In this document: piece by piece, positions 11,012 through 31,489 of the stretch
Position numbering within the stretch: the stretch's first letter is position 1
How the letters are laid out: each line of letters begins with the position of its first letter
Assembly (NCBI RefSeq): GCF_017599345.1
Contig: NZ_JAGFVL010000063.1
Coordinates: 62,001-126,000, forward strand
Length of the DNA: 64,000 nucleotides
Origin: Gracilibacillus suaedae
GTDB taxonomy: Bacteria; Bacillota; Bacilli; Bacillales; Amphibacillaceae
Reading direction: 5' to 3'
Translations under genes and position numbers: made by a program
The notes under the pieces: model-generated
Databases searched by the model: none
Told to the model about the DNA's origin: nothing
Seen by the model: the letters and a program-made list of their open reading frames with translations, nothing else

Positions 11012-11182
11012 TTGAAAGATAATGACTACAAGCCGAAGCAATTACTAACGAAAAGGGAAAGAGAAGTATTTGAGCTACTAGTACAGGATAAAACAACAAA
11101 GGAAATCGCCGAAGAGTTATTTATTTCGCAAAAAACTGTGAGGAATCATATCTCAAATGTAATGCATAATGATTGCAAGTAA
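11012..11182 (+). pseudogene. gerE: gerE 5' portion, interrupted by the mobile element
   Basis: TTG start behind AAGGAGGGG. The first 49 residues match GerE, a LuxR-type HTH regulator of late mother-cell coat genes: LLTKREREVFELLVQDKTTK, EIAEELFIS, KTVRNHISN. After the 13-bp core at 11147 the frame leaves GerE and ends after seven foreign residues (VMHNDCK). The missing 25 codons are intact at 31412-31489. Joined at the shared core, the gene encodes 74 residues, the size of B. subtilis GerE. It is better seen as a reversibly split gene than as a dead one. Confidence 0.93.
11147..11159 (+). repeat. Attachment core, left copy (attL)
   Basis: CATATCTCAAATG, identical to 31400-31412 and located inside codons 46-50 of gerE. 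The next bases are TA here and CC in the right copy, then ATGCA in both. Confidence 0.88.
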
Positions 11183-11212
11183 AAAAACCTGGAATATTAA
11201 TCAATTCCAGGT
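11181..11212 (-). terminator. Terminator for the leftmost minus-strand cassette
   Basis: ACCTGGAAT and ATTCCAGGT pair (11187-11195 with 11204-11212). On the minus strand the hairpin is followed by a run of seven Ts. It lies ten bases beyond the end of the 242-residue gene and shields the gerE fragment. Confidence 0.8.
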
Positions 11213-11221
11213 ATAAAATGA

Positions 11222-11950
11222 TTAGTAATATTTTTTGAAATATTCCTTTATTTCATCTTTATTCTCTATATTGGAAGCTTCAACATAGGCATTCAAACTT
11301 TCTATAAATTCTTCTCGAGTGATATTTGCATCCGCGATAATTGTATTTAAAATAAAATCGATTCTCATCTCGTTTGCTTTGATATACACACTTTTTTCCA
11401 CAGTCTCTATATCATTATATAAATTTGAAATATAATATAGTCTTATAGTATTTCCGATTAGACTAATTGCATAGAAAATCACAAAGAATAGAAAATACGT
11501 AAGAACTGAAAAAATAAGATATAAATTGAATTTACCAACTAGCTGTATTTGTGAATATAAACTTAAATGCATAATTAAGAAAAGTAGAATTCCTATACCA
11601 GTATTGAAGGCGAGAAATTCAAAGCTGATAAGAATTTTATTAATAAAATCTTTATCTTCCCCAATTTCTTTAATTTTTTTAAGGGTATTTTTGTTAAAGA
11701 CACTGATTATAATTGCTACTCCAGCTAAAATAATCCCTAGAAGCCCTAAAAGTGCTTGAACAATATAAATTGTTAAATTTTGAAACGCAATAATATAATT
11801 ATTAAAGTTATCGTAAATATCAATATACATTGAAAATATCAGTAAAGATAATGTTGCTAATAGAGCAGCCTTACATTCAAACCTTTTAAAACTAATGTAA
11901 TCCTTCCATTTTTTATTAGCTGCGAAACGATCTAGAATCTTTTGTTTCAT
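11222..11950 (-). CDS. Four-TM membrane protein of a two-gene cassette, function unknown
   Basis: 242 residues. Hydrophobic segments are near 27-45, 55-85, 113-133 and 143-168, followed by a soluble C-terminal tail of about 70 residues rich in acidic and Asn residues. It lies 8 bases after the 313-residue gene, with an AGGAGG-type RBS, so the two are co-transcribed. A soluble protein paired with a membrane protein at the edge of a prophage-like element is a frequent layout of anti-phage systems. I do not recognise a named family. Confidence 0.7.
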   Translation of the reverse strand: MKQKILDRFAANKKWKDYISFKRFECKAALLATLSLLIFSMYIDIYDNFNNYIIAFQNLTIYIVQALLGLLGIILAGVAIIISVFNKNTLKKIKEIGEDKDFINKILISFEFLAFNTGIGILLFLIMHLSLYSQIQLVGKFNLYLIFSVLTYFLFFVIFYAISLIGNTIRLYYISNLYNDIETVEKSVYIKANEMRIDFILNTIIADANITREEFIESLNAYVEASNIENKDEIKEYFKKYY

Positions 11951-11958
11951 AATACCTC

Positions 11959-12900
11959 CTAAGTAAAGTAAGTTAAAAGTGCATTAACTTTATCTTTGCA
12001 TGCAAGAGCAAAATCACGTTGACTTGACGGTTTTTCAGTGAGCGTATCCTTTACAGGTCTGCTGTCTTCAGTTGTAAAAGTTCTTCCGTTTTTACTTGTT
12101 GCACTAAGATGAATGTATCCTCGTTGAATTGCAGTTTCACTTGATATAGATGAATGAACATTATCTACCCGATCTAATTCTTGATTTACCATTTTTGAGT
12201 TTAATTTAAGCCCCTGTGGAGCCTTAGAGTTAAATAAAATGCTTCTTTGAGTGATATTTCCTTCCTTTATACTTTCAAGATATTCCTCTCCGTTTTCTTG
12301 TATATTGTCTAATATTTCATCATCAGGATTTGGTGGAGTAATATCTATTTTTAAAGATTCAATGTTACCTATCTTTTTAAGTTGCTTTTTAATATCATTT
12401 AATTCTAGACCTTCCCTCCACAAAGAAACCTTAAAATAATATTCTTCATCTTCTGTAAACATACTTCTGTTAATAAGTTCCTTAAATACATCATTGAATT
12501 CCTTGAATCCAAATCGGTTAGTAGTGTGAAAACAAACTATCTCTTTAAGAATATCAAAATAGAAATCAATAACCTCTGTATGACTTGTTGGTTTATTTAT
12601 CATTTCACCAGTTTCTTCATCTAAATCATTTATAAAAATTGTCATCTTCTTTACTATTTTACCTGTTATAGTGTAGTCTAAATCAGAAAATTTCAAAATA
12701 GAATAAAATTTGTAAACAGTAGTATCGTGGTATTCCTTGCCACTTTCATCAAAACCGACAGTTTCATTTCCATATAATATACCATCTTTAATATTTATGT
12801 ATAGTTTTTCAAATATTTTTTGCATTTCTTTTCTGTCATTATAAACATTGAATATATGAGAATTGATATTTATTTTAGAAAAATATAGAGTTATTGACAT
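11959..12900 (-). CDS. Soluble protein of unknown function, partner of the membrane protein
   Basis: 313 residues, no membrane segment or signal peptide. The N-terminal half looks alpha/beta with strand-like segments (SITLYFSKININSHIF, DTTVYKFYSILKF, TGKIVKKMTIFIND) and an FYFDILKEIVCFHTTNRFG motif. The C-terminal third is charged and ends in a helical region. It somewhat resembles uncharacterised DUF4747-like or Kiwa KwaB-like proteins in layout, but I cannot assign it. First gene of a minus-strand pair next to attL, probably accessory or defence cargo. Confidence 0.65.
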   Translation of the reverse strand: MSITLYFSKININSHIFNVYNDRKEMQKIFEKLYINIKDGILYGNETVGFDESGKEYHDTTVYKFYSILKFSDLDYTITGKIVKKMTIFINDLDEETGEMINKPTSHTEVIDFYFDILKEIVCFHTTNRFGFKEFNDVFKELINRSMFTEDEEYYFKVSLWREGLELNDIKKQLKKIGNIESLKIDITPPNPDDEILDNIQENGEEYLESIKEGNITQRSILFNSKAPQGLKLNSKMVNQELDRVDNVHSSISSETAIQRGYIHLSATSKNGRTFTTEDSRPVKDTLTEKPSSQRDFALACKDKVNALLTYFT

Positions 12901-12991
12901 ATAAAATAATCCTCTCCTACAAAATTATTAACTATGATACAATTTTACTATAAATAGAAGAAGTTTACATTAAATATTTGGAAATATTTAA

Positions 12992-13486
12992 TTAATTATG
13001 AAATAGTGTGGAATTAATAACTACCATGTTTCTTGCTATACCGTTCAATCTCTCTTTAACAATGTATAGATCTAAATTGAAAGCCTCAGCCATTTCGTTT
13101 ACAATATATTCGCTTTTTAAATCAAATAATTTTAGCATATGGAACGGAATAGCTGCATAAAGTGTAAATCGTTTTGCATCCCATTCTTGGAGATCACGAA
13201 ATGCTTTAGGCATGATTAGTTGCGATCCACAGTGTCTTAGAATATGACAGAGCTCATGAAAGAATTGTTCGTGTTGTTCCTCGGTTGTTAACCTAGAATC
13301 AATACTGATGATTTTACTTCTACCATATGTAAAAGAATAAGAACGTTTCTCCCTAAATCCTAGCTGAATTTCAAATGATCTAGCAATCTTGTGAATATCC
13401 ATTTGTGAAGGGGTAGTAATTCCTTTCTTTAAATAATGATTAGCTATCCATTTTTCTAGATCGAATGGCTTATATGTGTAGGACAT
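12992..13486 (-). CDS. ImmA/IrrE-type metalloprotease
   Basis: 164 residues from the ATG at 13486, which has CGGAGGTGAT just upstream; a longer frame exists but lacks an RBS. The zinc motif HELCHILRH (HExxH) is central, with the pattern KIISIDSRLTTEEQHEQFFHELCH typical of ImmA. In ICEBs1, ImmA cleaves the ImmR repressor to trigger excision. Here the gene is separated from the XRE repressor operon by a terminator and has its own LexA-box promoter, an unusual arrangement. Confidence 0.88.
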   Translation of the reverse strand: MSYTYKPFDLEKWIANHYLKKGITTPSQMDIHKIARSFEIQLGFREKRSYSFTYGRSKIISIDSRLTTEEQHEQFFHELCHILRHCGSQLIMPKAFRDLQEWDAKRFTLYAAIPFHMLKLFDLKSEYIVNEMAEAFNLDLYIVKERLNGIARNMVVINSTLFHN

Positions 13487-13504
13487 TTTAATCACCTCCG
13501 TTAC

Positions 13505-13533
13505 ATTATACGAACAAACGTTCTTTTTATCAA
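13505..13533 (-). promoter_or_regulatory. SOS-controlled promoter of immA
   Basis: On the minus strand TTGATA, 17 bases, TATAAT. The spacer contains a LexA/DinR-type box at 13511-13524 (plus strand CGAACAAACGTTCT), matching 13 of 14 positions of the Bacillus consensus. LexA bound here would cover the promoter directly. The RBS follows within about 10 bases of the expected start, so the leader is very short. Confidence 0.78.
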
Positions 13534-13534
13534 G

Positions 13535-13565
13535 ACAAAAAAGAAACAGCAAAATTTACTGTTTC
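13535..13565 (-). terminator. Terminator between the Mrr-like gene and immA
   Basis: GAAACAG and CTGTTTC arms (13543-13549, 13559-13565). On the minus strand the hairpin is followed by TTTTTTG. It separates the repressor operon from the immA unit. Confidence 0.75.
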
Positions 13566-13578
13566 AAAAGATTTTGGA

Positions 13579-14271
13579 TTATATGTATTTTTTCTTCTTA
13601 GCTTCTTTTGTTCTCCATGGATCAAGATTCGATTTTACCCAATGAATGCTATTAGTTGTAATTCCTCTGTCACCAGCTTCAACCATTGCAGGGTTTGTAA
13701 AAGTAGATGATGTTATAAATCTAGCTAGCATACATTGTTTATTTTTCTTTGCCGAATCCAATTCTCTAATTGGTTTTACATCAATTTGATTACCTGAATT
13801 AATATAATGTTTTATTTGTACAGCTTCATCTGCTTGATCTTCTTTAGAATATATAATTAAATCTACTCCTCCGTCAGCACCTTCACCAGTTCTTCTTGGT
13901 TTGCAACCTTTTGCTTTAAAATAAAGGTAGCATACTTCTTCAAACTCCCGCCATGATATTTGTTCAATAGGCAATGTAAGGATTTCTTTTTCTGATCTAA
14001 ATAAATTATGTGGAATGTCTTTTTTATGTATGGTTTTCTTGCCTTTACTATTGGACTTGTTAATTGGAGTTTTCTTTTTCTTTGTTTGTTTTTTTATAGG
14101 GATTTGTCTTATTATTAATCCTCCAATTACTGCAGCTACTATTGGAACTGCAAAAACATATATGTAACTCGGAATTACAGAAGTTAACGTATCCCATAGC
14201 AGAAAGTAACCAATTAATATAATAGAACAACTTATAAGTCCATAAATTGTGTCTCTATCACTTTTTTTCAA
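13579..14271 (-). CDS. Membrane-anchored Mrr-like restriction endonuclease
   Basis: 230 residues. Two hydrophobic segments (about 10-28 and 33-53) are followed by a Lys-rich linker and a C-terminal nuclease domain. The catalytic pattern is GEGADGGVDLIIYS then EAVQIKHY, the GVDL...QxK form of the PD-(D/E)XK fold found in Mrr_cat proteins. It may cut foreign or modified DNA at the membrane. It is the second gene of the XRE repressor operon, only 3 bases after it, so expression is probably tied to lysogeny. Confidence 0.82.
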   Translation of the reverse strand: MKKSDRDTIYGLISCSIILIGYFLLWDTLTSVIPSYIYVFAVPIVAAVIGGLIIRQIPIKKQTKKKKTPINKSNSKGKKTIHKKDIPHNLFRSEKEILTLPIEQISWREFEEVCYLYFKAKGCKPRRTGEGADGGVDLIIYSKEDQADEAVQIKHYINSGNQIDVKPIRELDSAKKNKQCMLARFITSSTFTNPAMVEAGDRGITTNSIHWVKSNLDPWRTKEAKKKKYI

Positions 14272-14274
14272 ACT

Positions 14275-14607
14275 TTAATCACCTCTCTCCTGTTGCGCTT
14301 TCCACTTCACATAATCGATATGACGTTTGATGTCGTCAATTTCTTCTTGTGTTAAGCCTTCCATATCAAAAAAGAATAAACTTTCTTCATTCTCCTCTTT
14401 TTTATGTTTTTTTCCATCTACAAGATAGCTAATAGAAACATCAAAATACTCACTAATTTTAGTTAATAATTCAAACGAAGGTTCTCTCTCATTTCTTTCA
14501 TACATTCCTACTGCACTTTTACTAATATTCAAATGCTGAGCTAAATCTTTTTGATATAAGTTTTTAGACTGTCTCAATTTTTTCAATCGGTCACCGAATT
14601 TTTCCAT
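14275..14607 (-). CDS. XRE-family repressor (ImmR/cI-like)
   Basis: 110 residues. The N-terminal HTH reads RLKKLRQSKNLYQKDLAQHL then NISKSAVGMYERNEREPSFE, followed by a hinge and a C-terminal region (MEGLTQEEIDDIKRHIDYVK) common in SinR/ImmR-type phage repressors. It faces the second XRE gene across an operator-rich intergenic region. It is the likely lysogeny repressor and the probable target of the ImmA protease. Confidence 0.85.
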   Translation of the reverse strand: MEKFGDRLKKLRQSKNLYQKDLAQHLNISKSAVGMYERNEREPSFELLTKISEYFDVSISYLVDGKKHKKEENEESLFFFDMEGLTQEEIDDIKRHIDYVKWKAQQERGD

Positions 14608-14633
14608 TTTATCACCTTCTTAATTAAAGAATA

Positions 14634-14728
14634 ACACAAAATGTGTGCTTTTTTATTTAATCGCACGAAAAGTGTTTACAAAACACGAATTGTAGTTTAT
14701 TATTAAAAATATAGAACACATTACGTGG
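14634..14728. promoter_or_regulatory. Operator array between divergent XRE genes
   Basis: Four related palindromic sites in the 135-base divergent region: 14634-14646 (ACACAAAATGTGT, perfect arms), 14664-14674 (CACGAAAAGTG), 14683-14695 (weaker, ACACGAATTGT core) and 14716-14728 (ACACATTACGTGG). Their spacing of about 20-33 bp resembles a lambdoid-type genetic switch. Confidence 0.65.
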
Positions 14729-14742
14729 ACAGGAGGTATCTT

Positions 14743-14964
14743 ATGAACAAAGCATTAATTGCAAAGCGTTTAATTGATTTAAGGGGAAATCTTACTCGTG
14801 ATGAAGTAGCAAAGGATCTTCGAATAAGTATTAGTGCGCTTCAGATGTACGAAAATGGACAACGTGTACCAAAAGATGAAATTAAAATTAGAATTTCTAA
14901 TTATTATGAAGTTTCAGTTCAAACAATTTTTTTTGAAAATCAAGAACACGAAATGTGCTCTTGA
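14743..14964 (+). CDS. Small XRE-family regulator (Cro/Xis-like)
   Basis: 73 residues from the ATG with CAGGAGGT seven bases upstream; an in-frame GTG 18 bases earlier overlaps that RBS and is less likely. The HTH region reads LRGNLTRDEVAKDLRISISA then LQMYENGQRVPKDE. It diverges from the repressor operon. A fifth palindrome of the operator family (14946-14958) lies at the end of its own coding sequence. Confidence 0.8.
   Translation: MNKALIAKRLIDLRGNLTRDEVAKDLRISISALQMYENGQRVPKDEIKIRISNYYEVSVQTIFFENQEHEMCS
14946..14958. promoter_or_regulatory. Fifth operator copy at the end of the XRE gene
   Basis: ACACGAAATGTGC within a longer imperfect dyad (about 14942-14962). It matches the divergent-region sites and could control the downstream replication operon. 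Confidence 0.5.
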
Positions 14965-15099
14965 ATTGATGTGAGTGAAGTACATTTCTAGTCAGTAGTA
15001 GTATAGCTAATTTACTACATTTTTAAATTTCTACCAATAACAAAAATATGGTTAGTCCACATATTACTGCTGCATATGTTAAGAACAGGGGTGATGCAA

Positions 15100-15258
15100 A
15101 TGGCAAAGCAAACAACCAAGAGAAAAGTCACTTATAAGATCAGAAAGGTTACTTATGGCGATATGCCAAGAGAGGAAGCATTTGAAAAAGCTTTAAAGCC
15201 GTATTTTACACCAGAAGTTATTCCAGATAATCCACGTGAAAAGGTGATGAATGCTTAA
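15100..15258 (+). CDS. Small basic protein, unknown
   Basis: 52 residues from the ATG at 15100, with AGGGGTG seven bases upstream. The N-terminal half is basic (AKQTTKRKVTYKIRKV), then comes a helix and PYFTPEVIPDNPRE. It starts a run of small early genes before the primase. No family is recognised. Confidence 0.6.
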   Translation: MAKQTTKRKVTYKIRKVTYGDMPREEAFEKALKPYFTPEVIPDNPREKVMNA

Positions 15259-15431: not shown

Positions 15432-15448
15432 CTAAAGCGGTGAAATAT

Positions 15449-15556: not shown

Positions 15557-15702
15557 GTGAGAGGGTTGAATGATAAAGAAATAAAAAAAGTAGCAAGTGC
15601 GGACACACTTACTACAAGGTAAATTAGTCACTATTACTTTATCATTCTTCTCCTATTTTTAAAAGTCTTTTTACTAGTTTTTTACAAAGAAAGGGGAAAA
15701 AC

Positions 15703-17913
15703 ATGAGTTTAGCAATTGCACCATTGAATGTAACAAGTCTATCAACACTCTTTCCATCAGCAGAAAAACCATTCAAAGTCATTAAGCTGATTGGTTATTC
15801 CTATATAAATAAAAAACAAGAATATAGCGTTGCAAAACGTCCCTTTATGAAGAAATGGCAAGATTTGAATGTGCCAGGTTTAGATGAACATGAAACAACT
15901 CAATGGCTTAATCAAAAAGGATGGACAGGCTTAGTTATTCCAGATGGATATGATGTGATTGATATAGACGATCCACAGGAAGGACAAGCTATCTTCGAAG
16001 CACTTAATGCAGCTGATTTTCAATTTCATGCGATTAAAACTGTTAGAGGTTATCAGTTCTTTTTTAAGTCTACAGGTAAAGTGAGAGGTCAAGATGCAAA
16101 GGTACTAATGGCAGGTGGCTTTGTAGGTGATTATCGCCTTTCTGGTAGGGGACAAGTTGTTTTACCTAGTGAAAATACAGAAGGTCGTGAGTGGGTACAT
16201 ATTGCCAGTGGTGAGTTAGACGAAATGCCAATCTTTTTTGAAAGATTAAAAAAGTTAAGTAATGAAAACGATCGTCCATTCTATTTTCCAGTTAATGAAG
16301 GTTCACGTAATAACACACTTTATAGTCATTGCTGCCGATTGATTGAATTTGGGTATTCGCAAAAAGATGTATTATACATTGTTAGTTTTTTAAATCGATA
16401 CTTCTTTATTCCATCTATCGATCAATCAGAATTTACAGATACATTACGCAGCGCATTTCAATTTGAACCATCCGGAACGAACTATCAAACTAATGGAGCA
16501 GCACCTCCAAAAGACTATCCATTACAGGCTGTAACTAATGAGAATAAGCCACGATTTAATCTAACGGAGATGGGGAATGCTGAACGGTTGGTTTATCGGA
16601 ATGGTGAAGATTTAAAATATTGTGTTGAGTTTGAAGAATGGTTGATCTGGAATGGATCTACATGGATTGAAGATCGAAAGAGAAGGATAGAACGTATTGC
16701 TATTAAGACATTTCGTGAAATGTATGGAGAAATTCAAGACTTAACAGATACGGATGAACGGAAAAACCTATGGAAATGGGCGCAAAGCAGTGAGCGCAGT
16801 TCTGTTTTTCTTAATAGTATCGCTAGAGCACAAGCAATGTTGCCAGTATCACAGGAAGAATTGAACAAAGACAAATTTAAATTAAATTGTGCTAATGGTG
16901 TTGTGGATCTAAAAACGGGGCAACTACTTAATCATGAGCGAGATATGTTAATAACGAAAAATACACACATTACTTATGATCAGAACGCTGAATGTCCGAA
17001 CTGGTTAGCTTTTTTACAAAGCATTTTCAAAAAGGAAAATGACGAGATCAAATTTGAATTGATTGACTTTATTCAAAAATCAATAGGATATGCCTTAACT
17101 GGAGACACAAGCGAACAAGTAGCCTTTTTCTTGTGGGGAACAGGTCGAAATGGCAAAAGTACGCTAATTAACATTGTAAAGGACTTACTTGGAGATTACA
17201 GCAAGCAAACAAATGCCGATACGTTTACTACTCGTATTAATGAGGGGGGCATTAATAACGATATAGCTAGGCTGCATGGCTCACGTTTTGTATCCGCAGT
17301 AGAAAGTGAGGATGGTCAAAAGTTATCGGAAGCCCTAATTAAGCAATTAACTGGTGGTGAACCGATCACAGCACGTTTTCTAAGAAAAGAGTTTTTTGAG
17401 TTTATGCCTGAATTCAAGATTTTCTTTACAACCAACCACAAGCCAATTGTAAAAGGTGATGATGAAGGGATTTGGAGAAGAATTAGGCTGATACCTTTTG
17501 ATCGTACTATTCCTAAAGAAGAAGTGGACAAGGATTTACCAGAGAAATTACATGATGAACTTCCAGGCATTTTAAAATGGGCTGTTGATGGCTGTTTGAA
17601 ATGGCAACAGGAAGGGTTAGGAGAACCAGAAGAAGTTAAGAACGCAACAGACGAATATAAAGAGGAAATGGATCTCTTAGCTAGTTTTTTAAATGAATGT
17701 TGTGTAATTAATTCAGAAGCTAAAGTCCAGGCTAATGAATTGCACAAAGAGTATTTAACTTGGGCTGAATCAGTAGGGGAGTATCCCATGAAAAAGCGTT
17801 CGTTTAATAATCGTTTAGTCATGAAAGGTTTTCAGAAACGTAAGTCTACAGGTAATAAATTGTATTTTTTTGGTGTTGGTTTACGTTCTGATTTTGATGA
17901 AGATATCATCTAA
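15703..17913 (+). CDS. Primase-polymerase/SF3 helicase replication protein (phage P4/D5 type)
   Basis: 736 residues. The N-terminal prim-pol domain has the catalytic DVIDIDDP near residues 83-90 and TVRGYQFFFKS. A D5_N-like region follows (about 330-440). The SF3 helicase has Walker A GTGRNGKST near residue 480 and FFTTNHKP as the sensor region. The C-terminal winged-helix part is near 640-730. Such proteins prime and unwind a circular replicon from a cognate origin. Inoviruses normally use a rolling-circle Rep, so this is an unexpected replication module here. Confidence 0.92.
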   Translation: MSLAIAPLNVTSLSTLFPSAEKPFKVIKLIGYSYINKKQEYSVAKRPFMKKWQDLNVPGLDEHETTQWLNQKGWTGLVIPDGYDVIDIDDPQEGQAIFEALNAADFQFHAIKTVRGYQFFFKSTGKVRGQDAKVLMAGGFVGDYRLSGRGQVVLPSENTEGREWVHIASGELDEMPIFFERLKKLSNENDRPFYFPVNEGSRNNTLYSHCCRLIEFGYSQKDVLYIVSFLNRYFFIPSIDQSEFTDTLRSAFQFEPSGTNYQTNGAAPPKDYPLQAVTNENKPRFNLTEMGNAERLVYRNGEDLKYCVEFEEWLIWNGSTWIEDRKRRIERIAIKTFREMYGEIQDLTDTDERKNLWKWAQSSERSSVFLNSIARAQAMLPVSQEELNKDKFKLNCANGVVDLKTGQLLNHERDMLITKNTHITYDQNAECPNWLAFLQSIFKKENDEIKFELIDFIQKSIGYALTGDTSEQVAFFLWGTGRNGKSTLINIVKDLLGDYSKQTNADTFTTRINEGGINNDIARLHGSRFVSAVESEDGQKLSEALIKQLTGGEPITARFLRKEFFEFMPEFKIFFTTNHKPIVKGDDEGIWRRIRLIPFDRTIPKEEVDKDLPEKLHDELPGILKWAVDGCLKWQQEGLGEPEEVKNATDEYKEEMDLLASFLNECCVINSEAKVQANELHKEYLTWAESVGEYPMKKRSFNNRLVMKGFQKRKSTGNKLYFFGVGLRSDFDEDII

Positions 17914-20215: not shown

Positions 20216-20407
20216 ATGGAAGAAGGAACTACAGGCATTGATTGGTCGGGTCTTTCCTTACCGTTTGATGTAGGAGATTTAATCACAAGTGGTAACGGAC
20301 TATTAGGAATGATCGGGGGCTTTGTGTTAGTTGCACTAGCTTTCATATTCGTTCCGAAAGTTATTACACTTATTCGTCAATCATTTTCAGCAGCAAGAGG
20401 TAAATAG
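20216..20407 (+). CDS. Major coat-like protein, copy 2
   Basis: 63 residues. From the IDWSGLSLPFDVGDLI segment on it is nearly identical to copy 1 (one difference, Ala to Thr), with a different N-terminal start MEEGTTG. Its near identity at protein level and its own RBS (AAGTGAGG) point to recent duplication or dosage use. A strong terminator follows it. Confidence 0.72.
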   Translation: MEEGTTGIDWSGLSLPFDVGDLITSGNGLLGMIGGFVLVALAFIFVPKVITLIRQSFSAARGK

Positions 20408-20424
20408 TTTTAAGAGTGGATGGC

Positions 20425-20469
20425 AAAAAGCCGGGTAGATAGTTTTAAATGCTATCCTCCCGGCTTTTT
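20425..20469 (+). terminator. Terminator after the second coat gene
   Basis: AAAAAGCCGGG and CCCGGCTTTTT arms with additional inner pairing (TAGATAG with CTATCCT). It lies within the structural operon between coat copies 2 and 3, so it should leave the coat genes in excess over downstream genes, as after gene VIII in Ff phages. Confidence 0.85.
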
Positions 20470-20492
20470 GCTTTGGAAGGAGGTTTAATGTA

Positions 20493-20774
20493 ATGGGAAT
20501 TGATTGGTCAGGTCTTTCGTTACCTTTTGATGTGGGGGAACTAATAACAAGTGGTAGCGGTCTTTTGGGGTTTGTAGGTGCTTTTGTGTTGGTTGGTTTA
20601 GCATTTGTTTTTATTCCCCTAGTTATTGAAATGATTTTCGTTAGTATTAGGACATTTCAAGATAACAAAATAAATAAGGATAGCCCTAGACATAAAAGAA
20701 GATATTCAGAGGCTATATATACAAATGTGTTTGAAGATAGAATTTATTCAGCAAAAAAGAGGTTTCGGAGGTAA
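20493..20774 (+). CDS. Coat-like protein copy 3 with extended basic tail
   Basis: 93 residues. The first 50 match copies 1 and 2 (GIDWSGLSLPFDVGELITSG, TM helix), but after the TM it continues with a 40-residue tail rich in Lys and Arg (SPRHKRRYSEA, AKKRFRR). The tail could contact DNA or the assembly ATPase. Being beyond the terminator, it should be made in lower amount, so a minor virion protein is likely. Confidence 0.68.
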   Translation: MGIDWSGLSLPFDVGELITSGSGLLGFVGAFVLVGLAFVFIPLVIEMIFVSIRTFQDNKINKDSPRHKRRYSEAIYTNVFEDRIYSAKKRFRR

Positions 20775-21856: not shown

Positions 21857-23281
21857 ATGAGAAAAATAATGTTTATGCTTGCGGTGGCATTAACACTATC
21901 ACTTATTCCATTAAGCAACGTATTTGCAAGCACCTATGACTATCATGATGGCTTGCTAGACGATAGCGAAAACATTGCAGACACCGACCTTCCAAAAGGC
22001 GGGTATGATAACGACCTAAACACCGGAACAGGTACAACATACGGCGGTAAATGGTTTATTGAATTTGTCAACCCGGTTGATATTATTGCTTATTATATCG
22101 AAGGTACTGGTGGTAATGGTGCGTGGCGGTTTTACTTTCATGACGGAACAGAAATAGTTTTGAATGATTATGCAAAGTATGGTTATTTTGAATTTGATCA
22201 AGTCTTTAGTGGGGTTGAACGAATAGAGATTGAACACGATGGTAGCTCTTATAACCTGATTAAAGAAGTTGATTTCTTTTCTGCTCCTACGGACGATTTA
22301 ACACCACCAGGAGAGGTTAGTAATTTAACAATAAATGAAGGATACAACAGCTTAGATTTAAGTTGGTCAAACCCTAATGATGATGATTTTTCCGGTGTTA
22401 ATATTTATCAAGATGATGTGTTGATCAAGGAAGGATTAAAAGATAATCAATCCTATAAATTAAATGATTTAGGAGATAACACAACCTATCAATTTAAAAT
22501 TACTACTGTAGACATATTCGGGAATGAATCAGAAGGAAAAACAATAGAAGGAACAACGCTAGAAATTGTGGATAGTGACGGCGACGGCATACCCGATCAT
22601 GAAGACGAATACCCGGACGACCCGGAAAACACACCACCACCGGAAAACGCCGAAGAAGTGCCGGAAGTAGAAAACTTAGAAATTGAAGCAACACCGGAAA
22701 GGGTAGACTTGTCCTGGAACAACCCACCAAAATATTTTGGAAAAGCGACGATCTACCGGAAAACGACCGGAACCGTTACAAGTTTCAATATAAATGATCT
22801 GAATCCTTTTGCAGCACAAACGGTTTATGCTGCCGAAGATTACGAACCGTTATTTGAGACAAATGGAACAACCTTTGCCGATCTTAGCGTAAACGAAAAC
22901 GATCAATACGAGTATAAAGTGACTAACACCTATGAAGGCATAGAAAGTAGTGGGGTAACGGTGCAAACAACTATCCCGGAACCTCCACTTGTTGACACTT
23001 CCGATATGACGCTGCCTTTTGGTGTAGAGGGATTAATAGAAAGTGGTAACGGCTTATTACTATTGATCGGGGGCTTTGTGTTATTGGCATTAGCTTTTAT
23101 CTTTGTACCGAAAGTAATAGCAGCTATAAGGCAATCCTTTTCCGGTAGTAATGGAGCAGCACAAACAGCAGCACCAGGAACCAGGTTAACCGAAAGACAA
23201 CAAAAGATAGTGACCGGTCAGAAACAACGAGAACCGAGAGCGCCACGTATACCGAGGGAACCGAGACAAGGGAGGACATAA
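21857..23281 (+). CDS. Adhesin with FN3-like domains fused to a coat-protein-like module
   Basis: 474 residues. Signal peptide (to about residue 25), a beta-sandwich domain (about 30-145), an FN3-like domain (about 150-235), a Ca-binding thrombospondin-3-like loop DSDGDGIPDHEDEYPDDPEN, and a second FN3-like domain. Around residues 380-430 a coat-like module appears: TLPFGVEGLIESGNGLL, then GGFVLLALAFIFVPKVI and IRQSFSGSNG, closely matching the major coat proteins. A basic Pro/Arg-rich tail ends it. It is best explained as a receptor-binding tip protein anchored by its coat domain. Confidence 0.75.
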   Translation: MRKIMFMLAVALTLSLIPLSNVFASTYDYHDGLLDDSENIADTDLPKGGYDNDLNTGTGTTYGGKWFIEFVNPVDIIAYYIEGTGGNGAWRFYFHDGTEIVLNDYAKYGYFEFDQVFSGVERIEIEHDGSSYNLIKEVDFFSAPTDDLTPPGEVSNLTINEGYNSLDLSWSNPNDDDFSGVNIYQDDVLIKEGLKDNQSYKLNDLGDNTTYQFKITTVDIFGNESEGKTIEGTTLEIVDSDGDGIPDHEDEYPDDPENTPPPENAEEVPEVENLEIEATPERVDLSWNNPPKYFGKATIYRKTTGTVTSFNINDLNPFAAQTVYAAEDYEPLFETNGTTFADLSVNENDQYEYKVTNTYEGIESSGVTVQTTIPEPPLVDTSDMTLPFGVEGLIESGNGLLLLIGGFVLLALAFIFVPKVIAAIRQSFSGSNGAAQTAAPGTRLTERQQKIVTGQKQREPRAPRIPREPRQGRT

Positions 23282-24829: not shown

Positions 24830-24847
24830 TAACCAGGAGGGAAAAAC

Positions 24848-25075: not shown

Positions 25076-25444
25076 ATGCAAAATACAGAGCAACAAAATG
25101 CACATTCAAATGCCGATAAGCTGCAATCTGTTATAAGTGATGATCTTTTCCCCCAGGTGCAGCACATATCAGACGTAAAACAAGTAATCGAGGAAATGCA
25201 AGGCAAGTCACAGAACTTACGAGAACCGCAAGTCAAGGCTTTGCTTTTCCTGGAACGATTAGGACAAAACGAATATTTACACAAAGAAGGCAGCCCCTAT
25301 AAAGAACTAATTGAATATATCAAGAAACAAGGTAAGACAGACGTTGCAAACCCGGAATATTACCTGGATACGATCGAGGCATTAATACCGAAACCACCGA
25401 AACCGATCGTAATGGCTCCGGATGGAAAGGGGGCAAAACGATAA
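25076..25444 (+). CDS. 122-residue soluble protein upstream of the ATPase
   Basis: Helical protein ending in a Pro/Lys-rich tail (IPKPPKPIVMAPDGKGAKR). Its stop overlaps the ATPase start by one base (TAATG), so the two are translationally coupled. Possibly an adaptor for the ATPase. No family is recognised. Confidence 0.55.
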   Translation: MQNTEQQNAHSNADKLQSVISDDLFPQVQHISDVKQVIEEMQGKSQNLREPQVKALLFLERLGQNEYLHKEGSPYKELIEYIKKQGKTDVANPEYYLDTIEALIPKPPKPIVMAPDGKGAKR

Positions 25445-26070
25445 TGGCGCACCACTTTTTCATACAAGGACCACTTGGGGGCGGTAAAACCTTTTTAATG
25501 TCGCTCCTGGCACATCATTGGAAAGCGAAAACGGAAGCCCAGGGCGGTCATGTGGAATTGTTTAGCAACTATGAACTTGCAGACAGTTACCCCATGACAC
25601 ACTATACAGACTGGTACAAGGTAGCCGAAGCGCAAGGCTCTATATGTTGTTGGGACGAAGCGCAAATGGCTTTCAGTAATCGTAAGTGGAGCAAATACGG
25701 TCAAGGAATAGCCACAGAAACTATGATGTTTACTAGAAAAATGCAATCAGTGCAGTTTTATTGCAGCCCTTCTATAAACAACGTAGATAGCCGTATAAGG
25801 CAGATTGTAGAAGTGTTGATTACAACTAGAAAGATTGGAGATAAAGGATTCTCATTGCATTTCATGGACTATCAAACCAGGGAATTTTTACACAAACAAT
25901 TTATACCTATGTGGAAGGCTAAAAGATTTTTTAAATTAAATTTATATGATTCCTGGAACATGGTGCAAGGTTTTCCTTTGCCTAGCACTGAAAGAGAAGG
26001 AAAAGAATTTTTTGAAACGTTAAACGACATTCACGACGAAGCAAGGGGGAAAATACGTGTTAGAAGTTAA
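25444..26070 (+). CDS. Zot/pI-type filamentous phage assembly ATPase
   Basis: 208 residues. Walker A GPLGGGKTF is at residues 9-17, and the Walker B region SICCWDEAQMAF is near 74-85. The spacing, and the following FTRKMQSVQFYCSPSINNVD, fit the Zot/pI family of FtsK-like NTPases that drive extrusion of inovirus particles and serve as the hallmark gene of inoviruses. Unlike Ff pI it shows no C-terminal TM segment, so it may need a separate membrane anchor. Confidence 0.85.
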   Translation: MAHHFFIQGPLGGGKTFLMSLLAHHWKAKTEAQGGHVELFSNYELADSYPMTHYTDWYKVAEAQGSICCWDEAQMAFSNRKWSKYGQGIATETMMFTRKMQSVQFYCSPSINNVDSRIRQIVEVLITTRKIGDKGFSLHFMDYQTREFLHKQFIPMWKAKRFFKLNLYDSWNMVQGFPLPSTEREGKEFFETLNDIHDEARGKIRVRS

Positions 26071-26401: not shown

Positions 26402-26416
26402 GGAGGATCTTTATAG

Positions 26417-26794
26417 ATGTTATTAAGACTAGATCAAGGCGAGACAGCCTTATTATTGGCTCATATGGCTATGACAAGAAAAAGTGCTAGAAACACTTTC
26501 AAAAGAAACCATAAGAATGAAAAGAAAGAGTTGTTGCAATCTTTTGACGAGGTAAAAGCAAACCTGGAGCACGTCATAGAGAATTCAGAAGCAGCAAGCG
26601 ACCAAGTGTACGATTTTTATTTTAACGTAAGAGAAATAAAGATGATCTATTCTTTTCTCGCCAGTTATATTCCTTTGATATCCGATACAGTCAAGAAAGC
26701 TGGAGTAAAGGACGGAGACAAGGAACAAATAGAAGCACTAGAAAAGATCAAAGAGCAAACTTACAAGCTGTTAGAAGGTGCTAGCGTTGTATAA
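26417..26794 (+). CDS. 125-residue helical protein, unknown
   Basis: Behind AAGGAGGA. Predicted mostly helical (MLLRLDQGETALLLAHMAMT, then a long charged coil). It overlaps the start of the lytic transglycosylase gene by 17 bases. No family is recognised. Confidence 0.5.
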   Translation: MLLRLDQGETALLLAHMAMTRKSARNTFKRNHKNEKKELLQSFDEVKANLEHVIENSEAASDQVYDFYFNVREIKMIYSFLASYIPLISDTVKKAGVKDGDKEQIEALEKIKEQTYKLLEGASVV

Positions 26795-27440
26795 AACATT
26801 TCTTCTTTCTATTATCGGTTTTTTGTTGTATGTTTTCCCAGTTGCTGCTACTGATCTACACGACCAGGAACAAAAATATAAAAGAGAACTGGAAGAGATT
26901 GAAAAGCAAATAGACCAGACGAAAGACAAAGAGGAATCAATAGAGTTAACCAGGAAAAAAAGCGAAATAGCAGCTTATAAAAGGGCTTATAGTAAAGCAA
27001 TAGAATATACGCAAGAAAACACGTTTACAGCCGTTTATAATCCCAATACTAGCCAGGATCTGCAATACATTGATTTATACAAGCAAGCAGCAGCACAATA
27101 CAACATAGATTGGACTTTACTTGCTGCTGTTCACGACCAGGAGACTAACTTTTCTAGTCATGCAACTATGATAAGCAGCGCCGGGGCATTAGGGCATATG
27201 CAATTTATGCCTGGAACGTGGGAGCATTACGGTGTAGACGCAAACAGAAACGGTAAAAGAGATCCTTTTGAGATAGAGGACGCTATTTTTTCGGCTGCCA
27301 ATTACTTAGCAGCAACCGGAGCAGCCAAAGGAGATATAAAGAGTGCATTGTGGGCTTACAATCACTCTACACAGTATGGTTTAGAAGTGATGTCGAAACA
27401 AGAATACTATAAAAACAATTACCAGGAGGAAAGAGAATGA
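26778..27440 (+). CDS. Secreted lytic transglycosylase (SLT domain)
   Basis: 220 residues. Signal peptide or anchor (about 1-22), a coiled coil (about 28-75), then an SLT-type domain with LLAAVHDQETNFSSHATM (catalytic Glu near residue 119), SSAGALGHMQFMPGTWEHYG and WAYNHSTQYG. It would cut peptidoglycan outside the membrane, opening a path for particle export or entry through the Gram-positive wall. DPFEIEDAIFSAANYLA is typical of the family. Confidence 0.85.
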   Translation: MLALYKTFLLSIIGFLLYVFPVAATDLHDQEQKYKRELEEIEKQIDQTKDKEESIELTRKKSEIAAYKRAYSKAIEYTQENTFTAVYNPNTSQDLQYIDLYKQAAAQYNIDWTLLAAVHDQETNFSSHATMISSAGALGHMQFMPGTWEHYGVDANRNGKRDPFEIEDAIFSAANYLAATGAAKGDIKSALWAYNHSTQYGLEVMSKQEYYKNNYQEERE

Positions 27441-27580
27441 CTATAGGTAAAATAAGAACGATCTTATACAAGCTAGCAAAGTTTTTAGGAGATGTTAATG
27501 CAATACGAAGAGGAAAAGTAAAACAGCGTATCAAAAATAGAGTTGTTGGTAAGTTTGCAGCAAAAAGATTATTTAAATAG
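27437..27580 (+). CDS. 47-residue strongly basic protein
   Basis: The ATG overlaps the preceding stop (ATGA) with AGGAGGAAAG upstream. Many Lys and Arg residues (IRRGKVKQRIKNRVVGKFAA). It may bind nucleic acid, for example as packaging or recombination accessory protein. Last gene before a terminator. Confidence 0.55.
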   Translation: MTIGKIRTILYKLAKFLGDVNAIRRGKVKQRIKNRVVGKFAAKRLFK

Positions 27581-27604
27581 GGCTAGAATTAGCCTTTTCT
27601 TTTT
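27581..27604 (+). terminator. Terminator of the filamentous module
   Basis: Short stem GGCTA/TAGCC followed by TTTTCTTTTTT, directly after the last stop codon. The gap to the resolvase then contains GTGTCATAA twice (27613-27621 and 27690-27698), a possible resolvase operator or res half-site. Confidence 0.7.
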
Positions 27605-27710
27605 TATTAGTGGTGTCATAACTTACAAGTATTGAACCAATTATAAAGTGGTTAATAGATCGGTATTCTAAGAGGTATCAAAACTTAGTGTCATAAGTGG
27701 GGGGATAAAA

Positions 27711-28250
27711 ATGAAATACGGATACGCGAGAGTATCTACTGTTCATCAAGATTTAGAAGGTCAGATCCAAAAGCTAAATGAAGAAGGTTGCGAGAAAATA
27801 TATAAGGATAAATTTACTGGAACTAAAAGGGATCGTCCGGCATTTAGTGAATTGCTCCAGGTCTTAATTAAAAATGATACCTTAGTTGTTACGAAATTAG
27901 ATCGGTTTGCTAGGTCTACAGTAGATGGAATCAGTACGATTAAACAGTTATTTGAGAAAGGTGTTAAGGTACATGTGTTAAATATGGGATTGGTGGAGGA
28001 TACCCCAACAGGAAGGCTTATTTTTAATGTGATGAGTGCTTTTGCAGAGTTTGAAAGAGATATGATTGTTGAACGTACACAAGAAGGAAAACAGGTCGCT
28101 AAGCAACGTGATGATTTTCGGGAAGGTCGCCCAAAAAAGTACAGCAAGAAACAAATTGAACATGCTCTTATGTTAAAGAAATCTTACTCATACAAACAAG
28201 TTGAGGAAATGACCGGTATAAGTAAGAGTACATTAATACGGTCTAAATAA
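27711..28250 (+). CDS. Small serine recombinase (resolvase/invertase type)
   Basis: 179 residues. Catalytic Ser9 lies in [11 protein letters not shown], with [13 protein letters not shown] and [26 protein letters not shown]-terminal HTH follows ([20 protein letters not shown]). Proteins of this type resolve multimers or invert segments. Having it next to a large serine integrase suggests separate roles: dimer resolution of the circular form versus integration and excision. Confidence 0.93.
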
Positions 28251-28253
28251 TTT

Positions 28254-28282
28254 TTGAATAAAAGGAACAAATGTTCTATAAT
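28254..28282 (+). promoter_or_regulatory. SOS-type promoter of the large serine recombinase
   Basis: TTGAAT, 17 bases, TATAAT. The spacer holds GGAACAAATGTTCT (28264-28277), a LexA-type dyad GAAC-N4-GTTC matching 12 of 14 consensus positions. The layout copies the immA promoter, with the box abutting the -10. I see no convincing sigma-E or sigma-K promoter in the gap. Confidence 0.68.
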
Positions 28283-28330
28283 TATTTTGTTATCACATTA
28301 ATATGATATGTATAAAGCGAGGTGTTATAA

Positions 28331-29842
28331 GTGGAGAAGGATGAACAACTTACAACTTATCGTGAATACCCTTATTTAGTTTATGCCAGGGTATCTACAG
28401 ATAAAGACGAGCAAAAGGATTCATTAACCAATCAAGTTGATATTTGCCGCTACTGGTTAGAACAAAATCATTTTGAATGGAATGACAGATCCATTTTAGA
28501 AGATAAAGCAAAGTCAGGTACAATGTTTCTCGAACGAACAGCTATGCAGCTAATACTAAAAAAAGCACGAAACAGAGAAATTAAAATGGTTGTGTTTAAA
28601 TCAATACATAGGCTTGCCAGAGATTTAAAAGACGCACTAGAAATCAAAGAGGTTCTATTAGGTCATGGTGTACGTGTTGTAACTATTGAAGAAGGCTATG
28701 ATAGCGAATTTGAAGGCAAAAATGATATGAAATTTGAAATGTTCTCTATGTTTGCAGCACAATATCCTAAAACACAATCGGTATCAATCAGTGCTGCACT
28801 TGCTGCCAAAGTAAGAAAAGGGCATCATATCGGTAAAATTCCATACGGTTATGACCGAGTTGATCAGAAACTAGTTATAAAAGAAGACGAAGCAGCAGTT
28901 ATAAGGAAAATTTTTGACTGGTACAATAACAAAGGGTATGGACAGAAAACAATTACAAATAAGTTAAACGAAGGAGTAGAAAATGGATCAATATTACCTC
29001 CGAAATCAGGTGGAGCATGGCAGCTTACAACTGTTCAAAGAATATTGAAAAATCGTACATTTTGTGGCGATTTTATTTTAAATCAATATACCAACATAAA
29101 AGTGGACGGAAGGAAAAAGCAAATAAAAAATCCAGAATCAAAATGGACTGTAATTAAAGATCATCATCCTGCTATTGTATCCAGAGAAGAATTTGAGAAA
29201 GCGAATAATAAAGAAGTTCTGAATAAAAGGCAAAAAGTAACACCATGGAATGAGTTTAGGGGGCTTCTCAAATGTGGCCATTGTGGTAGTAATATGGTTA
29301 TAATGCAAAGTTGGAAAAAGAAGAAGGACGGATCAAAAACTCACTGGAAGTATCTAAAATGCAGCAAATATAGACGATCCAATAAATGTGTGAATCATCC
29401 ACCTATTACGTATGAGAGCTTTCGTGAATTAGTGCTACATAAATTAAAAGAAGAAACAGAAATAGCAAGCTTTAATCTAGAAAATAACTTAACAATAAAC
29501 GATCAAGCAAGAATTAAAAAGCTAGAAAAAGAAATTGATAACTTTAAACAAAAAATAGATAGGTTATTAGATATTTATTTAGAAGGCATTTTAAATAAAT
29601 ATGAGTATGAAAGTAAAAGAGAATTGATAGAGAAAAAAATAGAAAGATTAGAAGACGATTTATTTTTGTTAAACACTAAAGAGAAACGGGAAATGAATAT
29701 TGAAACAATTAAAGAAGCAATAGAGCAGTTGAATAATAAAAATCAAGATTTGTATAATGTTTTCAATACATTAATTGAAAATGGGACTATATATAAAGAT
29801 GGATTAATTGAATTAAAATTTAGCTTCAATAGTTTAAAGTAA
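28331..29842 (+). CDS. Large serine recombinase, probable integrase/excisionase
   Basis: 503 residues, GTG start behind GCGAGGTG. Resolvase domain with catalytic Ser22 in VYARVSTDKDEQKDSL, a recombinase domain (GHHIGKIPYGYDR, TVQRILKNRTFCGDF), a zinc ribbon (LKCGHCGSNM and YLKCSKYRRSNKC), and a coiled coil near 400-460. It belongs to the phiC31/SpoIVCA class. It lies 1.6 kb from the right attachment core and is the obvious candidate for cutting at CATATCTCAAATG in gerE. Confidence 0.94.
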   Translation: MEKDEQLTTYREYPYLVYARVSTDKDEQKDSLTNQVDICRYWLEQNHFEWNDRSILEDKAKSGTMFLERTAMQLILKKARNREIKMVVFKSIHRLARDLKDALEIKEVLLGHGVRVVTIEEGYDSEFEGKNDMKFEMFSMFAAQYPKTQSVSISAALAAKVRKGHHIGKIPYGYDRVDQKLVIKEDEAAVIRKIFDWYNNKGYGQKTITNKLNEGVENGSILPPKSGGAWQLTTVQRILKNRTFCGDFILNQYTNIKVDGRKKQIKNPESKWTVIKDHHPAIVSREEFEKANNKEVLNKRQKVTPWNEFRGLLKCGHCGSNMVIMQSWKKKKDGSKTHWKYLKCSKYRRSNKCVNHPPITYESFRELVLHKLKEETEIASFNLENNLTINDQARIKKLEKEIDNFKQKIDRLLDIYLEGILNKYEYESKRELIEKKIERLEDDLFLLNTKEKREMNIETIKEAIEQLNNKNQDLYNVFNTLIENGTIYKDGLIELKFSFNSLK

Positions 29843-29878
29843 ATAACGCTTGGACAAAAATTCAAGCGTTATTTTTCT
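29841..29878 (+). terminator. Terminator after the integrase
   Basis: Perfect 12-bp arms AAATAACGCTTG and CAAGCGTTATTT with a 10-base loop, then Ts. It separates integrase expression from the defence-like cargo. Confidence 0.9.
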
Positions 29879-29930
29879 TTGAATAATATGGTAATATTAG
29901 CTATATATTCTATAATAGGGGTGAGAAATA

Positions 29931-30683
29931 ATGAATTTTGTAAGTTATGACTATAAGGAAAGAAAAAAAAAGGTAGAAGAAATACTTGATAACACTGACA
30001 AAATAGAAGAGGTTGACAAGCTTCCATCTGAAGATAATTTTACCTACACAAATGGATATAAAGCTTGGGTAAGTGCTATATTTATTGATTTGAGAGATTC
30101 TACTAACTTATTTACTAAACATGAAGAACTAGACATAGCAAAAGTGATTCGTGGATTTACATCTGAAATAATAGAGATATTGAGAAAAGATACTAATAAT
30201 CAGTTGAAAGAAATTGGTATAAGGGGAGATTGCGTATTCGCAATTTATTCTACTCCAGTTTTAAACGACCTATATGATGTTTCGACTAGGGCTGTTTATG
30301 TCAATACATATATGAATATGTTAAATAAGTTATTAAAAAAAAGAAATCTTCCTACAATTAATGCTGGAATTGGATTGGGTTTAAATAAAATATTGGCAGT
30401 AAAAGCAGGAAGAAAATCTTCAGGAATAAATAATTTAGTATGGATTGGTGAAGCAGTTGCAAAAGCATCAAAACTTTCTGATTTAGGTAATAAAAATGGT
30501 ATTCGACCAATTGTTATGTCTGACATTTTTTTCACAAATTATATTGAAATTGAAAAAGAAAAAAATAGCAATAAAGATGTTGAAAATTGGTGGAAACAAG
30601 AATTTGATTTTAAAATAGGTAGTTATTATCATGGCAACATTATTGTAAATGAATTTAATGATTGGATTACTAATGAACTCTAA
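29931..30683 (+). CDS. Nucleotide cyclase-like protein, candidate Pycsar PycC
   Basis: 250 residues with a class III cyclase catalytic domain: metal-binding IFIDLRDSTNLFTKHE, then EIGIRGDCVFAIYS, and NAGIGLGLNKILAVKAG. Pycsar cyclases of this type make cCMP or cUMP on phage infection. It stands beside a three-TM protein of the Pycsar effector type, convergent with it. An ordinary adenylate cyclase is less likely given the small stand-alone form and the cargo position. Base composition is markedly AT-rich. Confidence 0.8.
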   Translation: MNFVSYDYKERKKKVEEILDNTDKIEEVDKLPSEDNFTYTNGYKAWVSAIFIDLRDSTNLFTKHEELDIAKVIRGFTSEIIEILRKDTNNQLKEIGIRGDCVFAIYSTPVLNDLYDVSTRAVYVNTYMNMLNKLLKKRNLPTINAGIGLGLNKILAVKAGRKSSGINNLVWIGEAVAKASKLSDLGNKNGIRPIVMSDIFFTNYIEIEKEKNSNKDVENWWKQEFDFKIGSYYHGNIIVNEFNDWITNEL

Positions 30684-30687
30684 ACTT

Positions 30688-31236
30688 TTATAGAAAATTT
30701 GAAAGTAAAATGAATAATAATAATAAAAAGATTGATAGAAAAAGAATGTTTAATACAAAATTGAATTTTTCAGATTTATAAGCCATTATACGGGAAATTT
30801 CATGAATTTGGGAAGAAAGTTCTTTTTGTAGTGTATCTTCTAAGTCACTTTCTATTTCTGGCAACTGTTTAATATGATCTAAATATTCGTTTTTCTTTAG
30901 TGTTGATATATGTTTATAATAAATAATTGAATTTTCTTCTTGTGTATAGCCTATCGCTTCCCGTGGTTTTATTACTTTGAAAATTACTATATAAACTTGA
31001 TAAGTTAATAAAATGGTAAGTGAAAACCCAACAAGGAATGTAAAAATCGATATAACTATCTTAAAATCGTTACTATAAGTAAAGGGATTTATAAAATCTA
31101 AGTTCTTTGCAAATTCAATAGTAGCTGTAAATAAAAAACCATATACAACTAATAGTGCACCAGCCTTTTGATCCATAAAACGTATAAGTTCCTGTATGTT
31201 AGTGTAATTATATATTAATATATCAAGCTTACTCAT
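30688..31236 (-). CDS. Three-TM protein, candidate Pycsar effector PycTM
   Basis: 182 residues from the ATG at 31236, behind TGGAGGTAAG; the start four codons upstream overlaps that RBS. The segment IQELIRFMDQKAGALLVVYG fits the start of the Pycsar TM effector domain. TM segments lie near 26-45, 60-88 and 157-180, with a charged helical region between the last two. Such effectors disrupt the membrane when they sense the cyclic pyrimidine signal. It is convergent with the cyclase, 4 bases between stops, so it has its own promoter. Confidence 0.75.
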   Translation of the reverse strand: MSKLDILIYNYTNIQELIRFMDQKAGALLVVYGFLFTATIEFAKNLDFINPFTYSNDFKIVISIFTFLVGFSLTILLTYQVYIVIFKVIKPREAIGYTQEENSIIYYKHISTLKKNEYLDHIKQLPEIESDLEDTLQKELSSQIHEISRIMAYKSEKFNFVLNILFLSIFLLLLFILLSNFL

Positions 31237-31399
31237 ACTTACCTCCATTCAGATCACAAAACTGACTTAATTATAGCATTAGTTCTAACTAATAAAAAGT
31301 TTAAATTAAAGATTGAAATTCATTTATACTTTAATTCACTATAATGATGGAAGAAAAGTGAGTTAGTCAAAAAATATTCTTTTTAGTTCGCAATAACAA

Positions 31400-31412
31400 C
31401 ATATCTCAAATG
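31400..31412 (+). repeat. Attachment core, right copy (attR)
   Basis: CATATCTCAAATG, identical to 11147-11159. It continues into the GerE frame (CCATGCAGAAG), while an in-frame stop codon lies two codons upstream on the element side. Confidence 0.88.
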
Positions 31413-31489
31413 CCATGCAGAAGCTGGGTGTAAAGGGGCGCTCACAAGCTGTAGTGGAGTTATTGCGAATGGGCGAGTTAGAGCTTTAG
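31400..31489 (+). pseudogene. gerE: gerE 3' portion, displaced by the element
   Basis: Encodes HISNAMQKLGVKGR then SQAVVELLRMGELEL and a stop: the last helix and end of GerE. It has no start codon or RBS and is preceded by a stop on the element side, so it cannot be expressed alone. Fusion to 11012-11146 through the shared core restores the full 74-codon frame with no base lost. All 25 unique codons are undamaged, implying that selection still acts on them. Confidence 0.92.

Follow-up and report, generated by a model that had tools for sequence, protein, structure and literature searches.

What becomes of a late sporulation regulator whose gene is cut in two by some 20 kb of other DNA? This question is raised by a stretch of 64,000 nucleotides from the draft genome of Gracilibacillus suaedae (contig NZ_JAGFVL010000063.1, positions 62,001 to 126,000; henceforth the window), in which gerE is interrupted after codon 49 by an element of 20,253 bp, measured from the AA of one exchange point to the AA of the other. 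Codons 1-49, with a TTG start, lie at 11012..11159, and codons 50-74 with the stop at 31413..31489, both on the plus strand; a 13-bp sequence, CATATCTCAAATG, closes the left part (11147-11159, the core of the left attachment site, attL) and recurs at 31400, directly before the right part. It has no other match in the window with up to one mismatch allowed; 0.23 matches are expected by chance, and two or more occur in 2 of 100 shuffles. Comparison of sequences points, with a probability of about 0.8, to an excision of the element that is timed by sporulation and restores gerE. The narrower claim, that excision is precise and rebuilds the gene, is well supported, because the integrase and the arms of the attachment sites are conserved, a candidate directionality factor comes with a box of its own, the displaced exons are undecayed, the scars of former elements are decayed, and excised forms occur in relatives.

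Left unexcised, the 5' part of gerE runs in frame into the element and ends after 56 residues, inside the helix-turn-helix (HTH) motif. Joined at the repeat, the two parts give a 74-codon gerE, whose product is 98.6% identical to GerE from seven congeneric species with an uninterrupted gene. Upstream lie AAGGAGG and a conserved leader, as in the intact relatives, preceded by a promoter, CACA-N16-CATATTATA (10919..10947, plus strand), which is sigma-K-like and has similar counterparts in those species of the genus where gerE is intact; beyond the stop codon, a stem followed by T's can be made out by eye. A search of the 4.65-Mb genome (64 contigs) brought up no second gerE: elsewhere the 5' part is matched at no more than 52% identity, and the whole of GerE at best by a 237-codon frame at 50%, these matches being taken to be LuxR-type HTH proteins. 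sigK is uninterrupted in this genome. The initial annotation had placed codons 1-49 left of one repeat copy and the last 25 right of an identical one, and had given the rejoined 74-codon gene an intact promoter, ribosome-binding site and terminator; the scan of the window confirms the split, and the uninterrupted frame, promoter, ribosome-binding site and stem with T's are all present. It had also proposed a search for intact gerE in relatives, which the seven species now provide, and had named a second intact gerE in this genome, together with the lack of an excision product in sporulating cells, as counter-evidence; such a second gerE was looked for and not found.

The point of exchange is predicted to be the AA of CAAA, at 11156-11157 and 31409-31410, because the arms of the element are palindromic about that centre; it falls in codons 48-49 of gerE, inside the HTH. 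The arms were compared in 21 elements and are conserved across the family, reading TTTGCAAT... on one side and ...ATTGCAAA on the other. In the window, the element-side arm of attL is TAATGCATAATGATTGCAAG (11160..11182, plus strand), in which the truncated GerE stops, and the right attachment site, attR (31386..31412, plus strand), consists of the arm TTCGCAATAACAA and the core at 31400-31412. When the 50-bp attP of the excised element is rebuilt for the 21 elements, it shows on average 17.8 of 25 possible palindromic pairs, against 7.0 (standard deviation 2.2) in shuffled sequences and 8.5 in attB, the corresponding host site. Among these 21 sites, the attP of the window has the lowest symmetry (12 of 25 pairs), probably because the half-core of its attR equals gerE, which is also why the repeat is as long as 13 bp here. 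In other species, attL and attR have little beyond CAAA in common; the 13-bp identity is thus longer than the exchange requires, and the repeat was rejected as the exchange site in favour of the AA.

The 25 displaced codons of the window are open to the normal stop, in line with the initial annotation, which had seen no decay in them. Across the family, 26 of 26 displaced 3' halves read open to this stop with few substitutions; 20 belong to genomes that lack an intact gerE, five to named loci, the rest of their genomes being outside the gerE search, and one to genome G145 (6% contamination), which also holds an intact gerE and whose differing fragment is probably a contaminant. Genome G368 stands outside this count, as do L158 and L164, viral contigs whose 3' halves are open; at locus L009, another frame over the same position was left out. 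Where a displaced copy lies beside an intact gerE (G016, G011, G012 and Sporolactobacillus laevolacticus), it is damaged in four of four cases, by four substitutions, stops or frameshifts. This split, 26-0 against 0-4, arises once in 27,405 random labelings, with relatedness and age uncontrolled. In S. shoreicorticis (L022, around 15906), a surplus 3' copy beyond the open half contains a stop and is decayed. Such scars are remnants of former elements; matches to gerE below 62-65% identity were dropped, and further decayed scars may exist. The displaced halves of G098 and G143 differ by 16 synonymous and no nonsynonymous changes. Genome G050 shows another escape from a split gerE, with a full gerE and its promoter region at the right flank (L146 787-1008) and a 5' half with attL at the left (L147 8920-9072). 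Decayed scars are located at L073 5602-5688, L074 2255-2335, L078 17919-18005 and L026 around 15170.

The enzyme associated with these splits is a large serine integrase, in the window a protein of 503 residues (28331..29842, plus strand; Pfam Resolvase, Recombinase and Zn ribbon; PHROG 95). Among 18 named loci with relatives of it, 15 have the integrase and a gerE half at a distance of about 7 kb or less, and one, that of Sporolactobacillus laevolacticus, has an intact gerE together with a decayed copy; two show no gerE within the stretch examined. None of the 18 is labeled as B. cereus or B. toyonensis. In the host family, the integrase occurs at E<=1e-90 in 11 of 159 genomes, and in an even sample of the order in at least 13 of 397, a lower bound with three candidates per genome scored; it was found in none of 16 genomes of a family of large-genome Bacilli, a family that is unlikely to be the B. 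cereus group. Of the 22 genomes that carry the integrase, 20 have a split gerE and no intact one, and the remaining two, G368 and G145, have a split as well as an intact one. At least 350 of the 397 order members have a GerE match at E<=1e-29, a number that a check of 10 of the 47 non-matching genomes shows to be a lower bound for intact gerE: four of the ten are split by another integrase family, two have a divergent near-complete GerE, and four have other HTH proteins only.

The elements vary widely around this constant part. Where both halves lie on one contig they measure 4,079 to 51,881 bp, and their payload is inovirus-like in the window and four other genomes (G010, G014, G046 and G052), that of a tailed phage in B. 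altitudinis (NZ_CP124832.1), and without any recognised phage gene in the small islands of G098, G143 and G389; Caldibacillus phage CBP1 encodes an integrase of the same family (55%). The split state is shared by the window, three further species of its genus and other genera. In the integrase tree, which leaves out the incomplete G008 row, each of five host groups stays together (three genera by label, two Amphibacillus species with different genus labels, and Bacillus g88 with B. altitudinis by name). Within one genus (G073, G212, G217), synonymous divergence is 0.06/0.65/0.62 for sdhB against 0.12/0.45/0.50 for the integrase. Strictly vertical inheritance was rejected, as the phage segments are mosaic, and vertical descent of the elements is only suggested by these sequences. 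Islands of 4.1-5.3 kb in gerE, with the integrase, the candidate factor and few cargo genes, are seen at L018, L084 and L085; from the look of the sequence, their cargo comprises a lipoprotein, a phospholipase-D-like protein and an FAD oxidoreductase. In genome G009 (L071 10004-12667), an intact gerE is followed, some 9 kb downstream, by a D5 primase and a neighbor of the same phage kind.

A second, unrelated family of large serine integrases splits gerE in four genomes (G238, G248, G297 and G305; L150, L152, L153 and L156). Its members are 27-30% identical to the integrase of the window and 44-55% identical among themselves; the family has converged on the same site, with the same AA as read from the arms by eye.

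Excised DNA can be seen in relatives. The assembly of G368 contains attL (at the start of contig C6), attR (at the end of C6) and a restored gerE (at the start of C25), and the contigs break at the core, so that the sample presumably contained the element in both states, integrated and excised. In B. altitudinis, the circular record NZ_CP124832.1 starts exactly at the exchange point and, across its ends, reads TTTGTAAAAGGTATGCATAACA followed by AATGCTAAGCATACCTTTTACAAA, a sequence much like the attP predicted from the two attachment sites, attR and attL, of its relative G451. Labeled a plasmid, this record (L104 1-40956) is that of a tailed phage, which encodes AimR, and has the appearance of an excised circle of the gerE type. 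A whole attP-like palindrome is also present in IMG/VR contig L159.

What might set the direction of the reaction is a protein of 36-53 residues with the motif GKExYGxxPxEEAFxKALEPYF, which recurs in elements that share little else but the integrase and is, by its co-occurrence with the latter, a strong candidate for the recombination directionality factor; the copy in the window (family A2; 15100..15258, plus strand) has 52 residues. By a profile search of 46 genomes, the family is found in 21 of the 22 integrase-bearing genomes (all but G145), in none of the four split by the second integrase family, and in one of 20 with neither (G005). In 16 of 16 cases with both halves of gerE on one contig, it lies between them. 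It has no match to known families in Pfam or NCBIfam; two relatives weakly match PHROG 14553 and 14915, of unknown function, and the best PHROG for the protein of the window is 14849 at E 0.081. The relative in G005 (C10:160407-160523; L195, minus strand, from 7472 of the reversed locus) is an open frame of 40 codons; it belongs to a phage-like region some 110 kb away from the intact gerE of that genome, and the 16 kb of sequence read there contain no match to the integrase.

The gene is preceded by a conserved box, in the window GGTTAGTCC-N14-CATATGTTA (15050..15081, plus strand), a candidate sporulation promoter. GG[TG][TC][ACT]GTCC is present in 15 of 15 members examined, 47-51 nucleotides before the start codon, and is followed after exactly 14 bases by CATA in 13 of them, the exceptions being AATA in G368 and a 13-base spacer in G143; the pattern may be summarized as GGKTMGTCC-N14-CATAnnnT. 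In the form GGKYHGTCC-N14-CATA it precedes the factor gene in 17 of the 22 integrase-bearing genomes, and has 18 matches elsewhere in 45 genomes against 21 for a reversed control; within the host genome, the stricter pattern is confined to this place, and the looser one recurs once. The -10 half fits the sigma-E/sigma-K consensus and resembles the -10 recognized by a mother-cell sigma factor, so that the box is a putative mother-cell promoter. The -35 half was compared by eye with the SpoIIID and GerE consensus and rejected as a site of either, the fit being incomplete.

These elements suggest the following course of events. A large serine integrase would insert an inovirus-like prophage at one fixed point of gerE; since gerE would be off in growing cells anyway, the insertion would cost them nothing. 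In the sporulating mother cell, the 52-residue protein would be made from its dedicated promoter and would switch the integrase from insertion to excision. gerE would then be rejoined in time for transcription by sigma-K, and the rearranged chromosome would die with the mother cell.

A precedent at the same gene exists in B. cereus ATCC10987, where the gin element splits gerE at nucleotides 138-146, within the 9-bp CATCTCAAA, and leaves the gene when cells sporulate but neither during vegetative growth nor on treatment with mitomycin C, with GirC and the 42-residue GirX as requirements; its authors predict the same AA as the center of exchange (PMC5595907). The insertion site of the window matches these nucleotides, with exchange predicted at the AA. 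Like the element described here, gin combines this gene and predicted exchange point with a large serine recombinase (about 58 kDa, tagged) and a small factor, for which the element of the window has a candidate, and has a symmetric attP (called attG) and an asymmetric attB. Unlike gin, which has three recombinases and is without phage genes, the element of the window is an inovirus-like prophage with Pycsar cargo and with one large recombinase and one small resolvase, in another genus. The same source also notes a prophage, unverified, within the gerE of B. glycinifermentans.

Among the other known systems, SPbeta in spsM (SprA/SprB) is likewise a phage excised in the mother cell, and its sprB promoter likewise has a good sigma-E/K -10, described by the authors as perfect, and a poor, imperfect -35, for which the authors suggest a helper factor; gene and phage class differ (PMC4191935). 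SprB has no match to the profile of the candidate factor, and upstream of sprB no box was seen by eye. skin in sigK, vfbin in spoVFB and yin in yabG are excisable elements that split other sporulation genes, and for yin excised circles are reported at all time points (PMC10747680, PMC5595907). The open literature, with subscription papers and preprints outside the search, yielded no other report of a split gerE, and neither a sporulation gene interrupted by a filamentous phage nor any survey of these elements. The initial annotation had proposed a further, skin-like switch: comparison lends good support to precise excision, and its timing by sporulation is what we infer, but a gerE switch is itself already known from gin; the novelty lies in the type of element and in how widely its family is spread.

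The likeliest alternative is an ordinary temperate phage that uses gerE as attB and leaves on DNA damage or at random, gerE function being lost or supplied by rare excised cells. The element does contain many phage genes, and its integrase is preceded by TTGAAT-N17-TATAAT (28254..28282, plus strand), which is a sigma-A-type promoter by its consensus and whose spacer contains the LexA-like GAACAAATGTTC (28265-28276), of the form GAAC-N4-GTTC. This form occurs twice in the window against 0.85 expected, which is not significant; similar motifs precede the integrases of several relatives, by eye. The excised forms in relatives, too, would suit such a phage, as they carry no evidence of timing. It is nevertheless unlikely, given that the 4.1-5.3-kb elements without recognised phage genes keep integrase, small protein and box, that the displaced exons are conserved and that gin is a precedent at this very site. 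Still less probable, indeed quite improbable, is a recent or dead insertion in a strain that has lost gerE to an element unable to leave: no excised form was found in this genome and the left half-core of its attR differs from the usual attP sequence, but integrase, small protein, both arms and both parts of gerE are intact, and the split state is common to three further species of the genus and to other genera. An artefact of assembly, conceivable in a draft of 64 contigs, comes close to negligible, as both junctions lie inside one contig of 149.8 kb and like junctions recur in 20 of the 22 integrase-bearing genomes.

Sporulation-timed excision, the reading preferred here, has weak points of its own. 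The integrase promoter is of vegetative type with a LexA-like motif, and excision may take place also, or only, after DNA damage. G368 and B. altitudinis show excision and not its timing, and neither a gerE junction nor a circle was found in the window's own assembly, in which attP was not searched for separately. The factor family is not exclusive to gerE elements, as the relative in G005 shows; and no sporulation sigma factor is known to recognize a -35 like that of the box. The elements are mosaic, their vertical inheritance is only partly supported by sequence, and recent insertion may explain part of the low decay. That integrase and factor belong to the GirC/GirX family is something we infer, and the shared site alone is no proof of it, because a second, unrelated integrase family uses gerE.

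A wider proposal seems to us somewhat better than an even bet: that the integrase, a factor of 36-53 residues with its mother-cell promoter and a palindromic attP would form an old, portable module for sporulation-timed excision, carried by filamentous and tailed phages and by 4-5-kb islands and kept by host genera through speciation, while a second, unrelated integrase family converged on the same site. The host would pay nothing while the module works; on failure, gerE would be repaired beside a decaying scar, or the host would be stuck. A single reported case in B. cereus becomes a family across many genera of spore formers, filamentous phages join the known carriers, and a short conserved factor with a fixed promoter-like box is the likely clock. 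Where gerE has been repaired, the decaying exons in the scars next to it offer a natural control for the claim that split genes are kept functional, and the question of why phages use late sporulation regulators as attachment sites becomes testable.

The element itself is an inovirus-like prophage with a Pycsar defence pair; its GC content is 0.344, against 0.388 and 0.361 in the flanks. On the minus strand lie an ImmA/IrrE-like peptidase (M78; 12992..13552; PF06114), a membrane protein with an Mrr-type nuclease domain (13579..14271; PF04471) and a Cro/CI-type repressor (14275..14607; PF01381). On the plus strand, beyond the candidate factor, follows a Prim-Pol/D5 primase-helicase (15703..17913; PF09250, PF08706; PHROG 1829), the sole replication protein among the element proteins scanned; no rolling-circle replication protein was found among them, several small open reading frames lying outside the scan. 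Two small membrane proteins of 63 and 93 residues (20216..20774) are coat-like by the look of their sequence and have homologs in viral contigs, the 93-residue protein being without a family match in the Pfam/PHROG-type scans; a fibronectin type III protein with a coat-like C-terminal segment (21857..23281) is presumably of adsorption type. A putative filamentous-phage assembly ATPase of Zot/pI type (25444..26070) matches Pfam Zot at E 0.004, below the cut-off, and its structural model, of moderate confidence (mean predicted local distance difference test score 71), has as best match in the viral library a Zot-domain protein of the Inoviridae and in the PDB the Neisseria Zot domain 2r2a; the name Zot refers to the fold, from which the protein is read as an assembly ATPase, and implies no toxin role. 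The block from coat to ATPase recurs, whole or in part, in seven IMG/VR contigs, where the ATPase is 70-79% identical and no gerE half is present; Moorella phage MCACPph1 has an ATPase 34% identical and no match to the integrase of the window at E 1e-4. A lytic transglycosylase (26778..27440; Pfam SLT) and a small serine resolvase (27711..28250; PF00239) lead up to the integrase, beyond which lie the cargo genes, the Pycsar cyclase PycC (29931..30683, plus strand; PADLOC E 4e-95) and the Pycsar membrane effector PycTM (30688..31248, minus strand; PADLOC E 1.9e-21). This pair sits between integrase and attR and is convergent instead of forming an operon.

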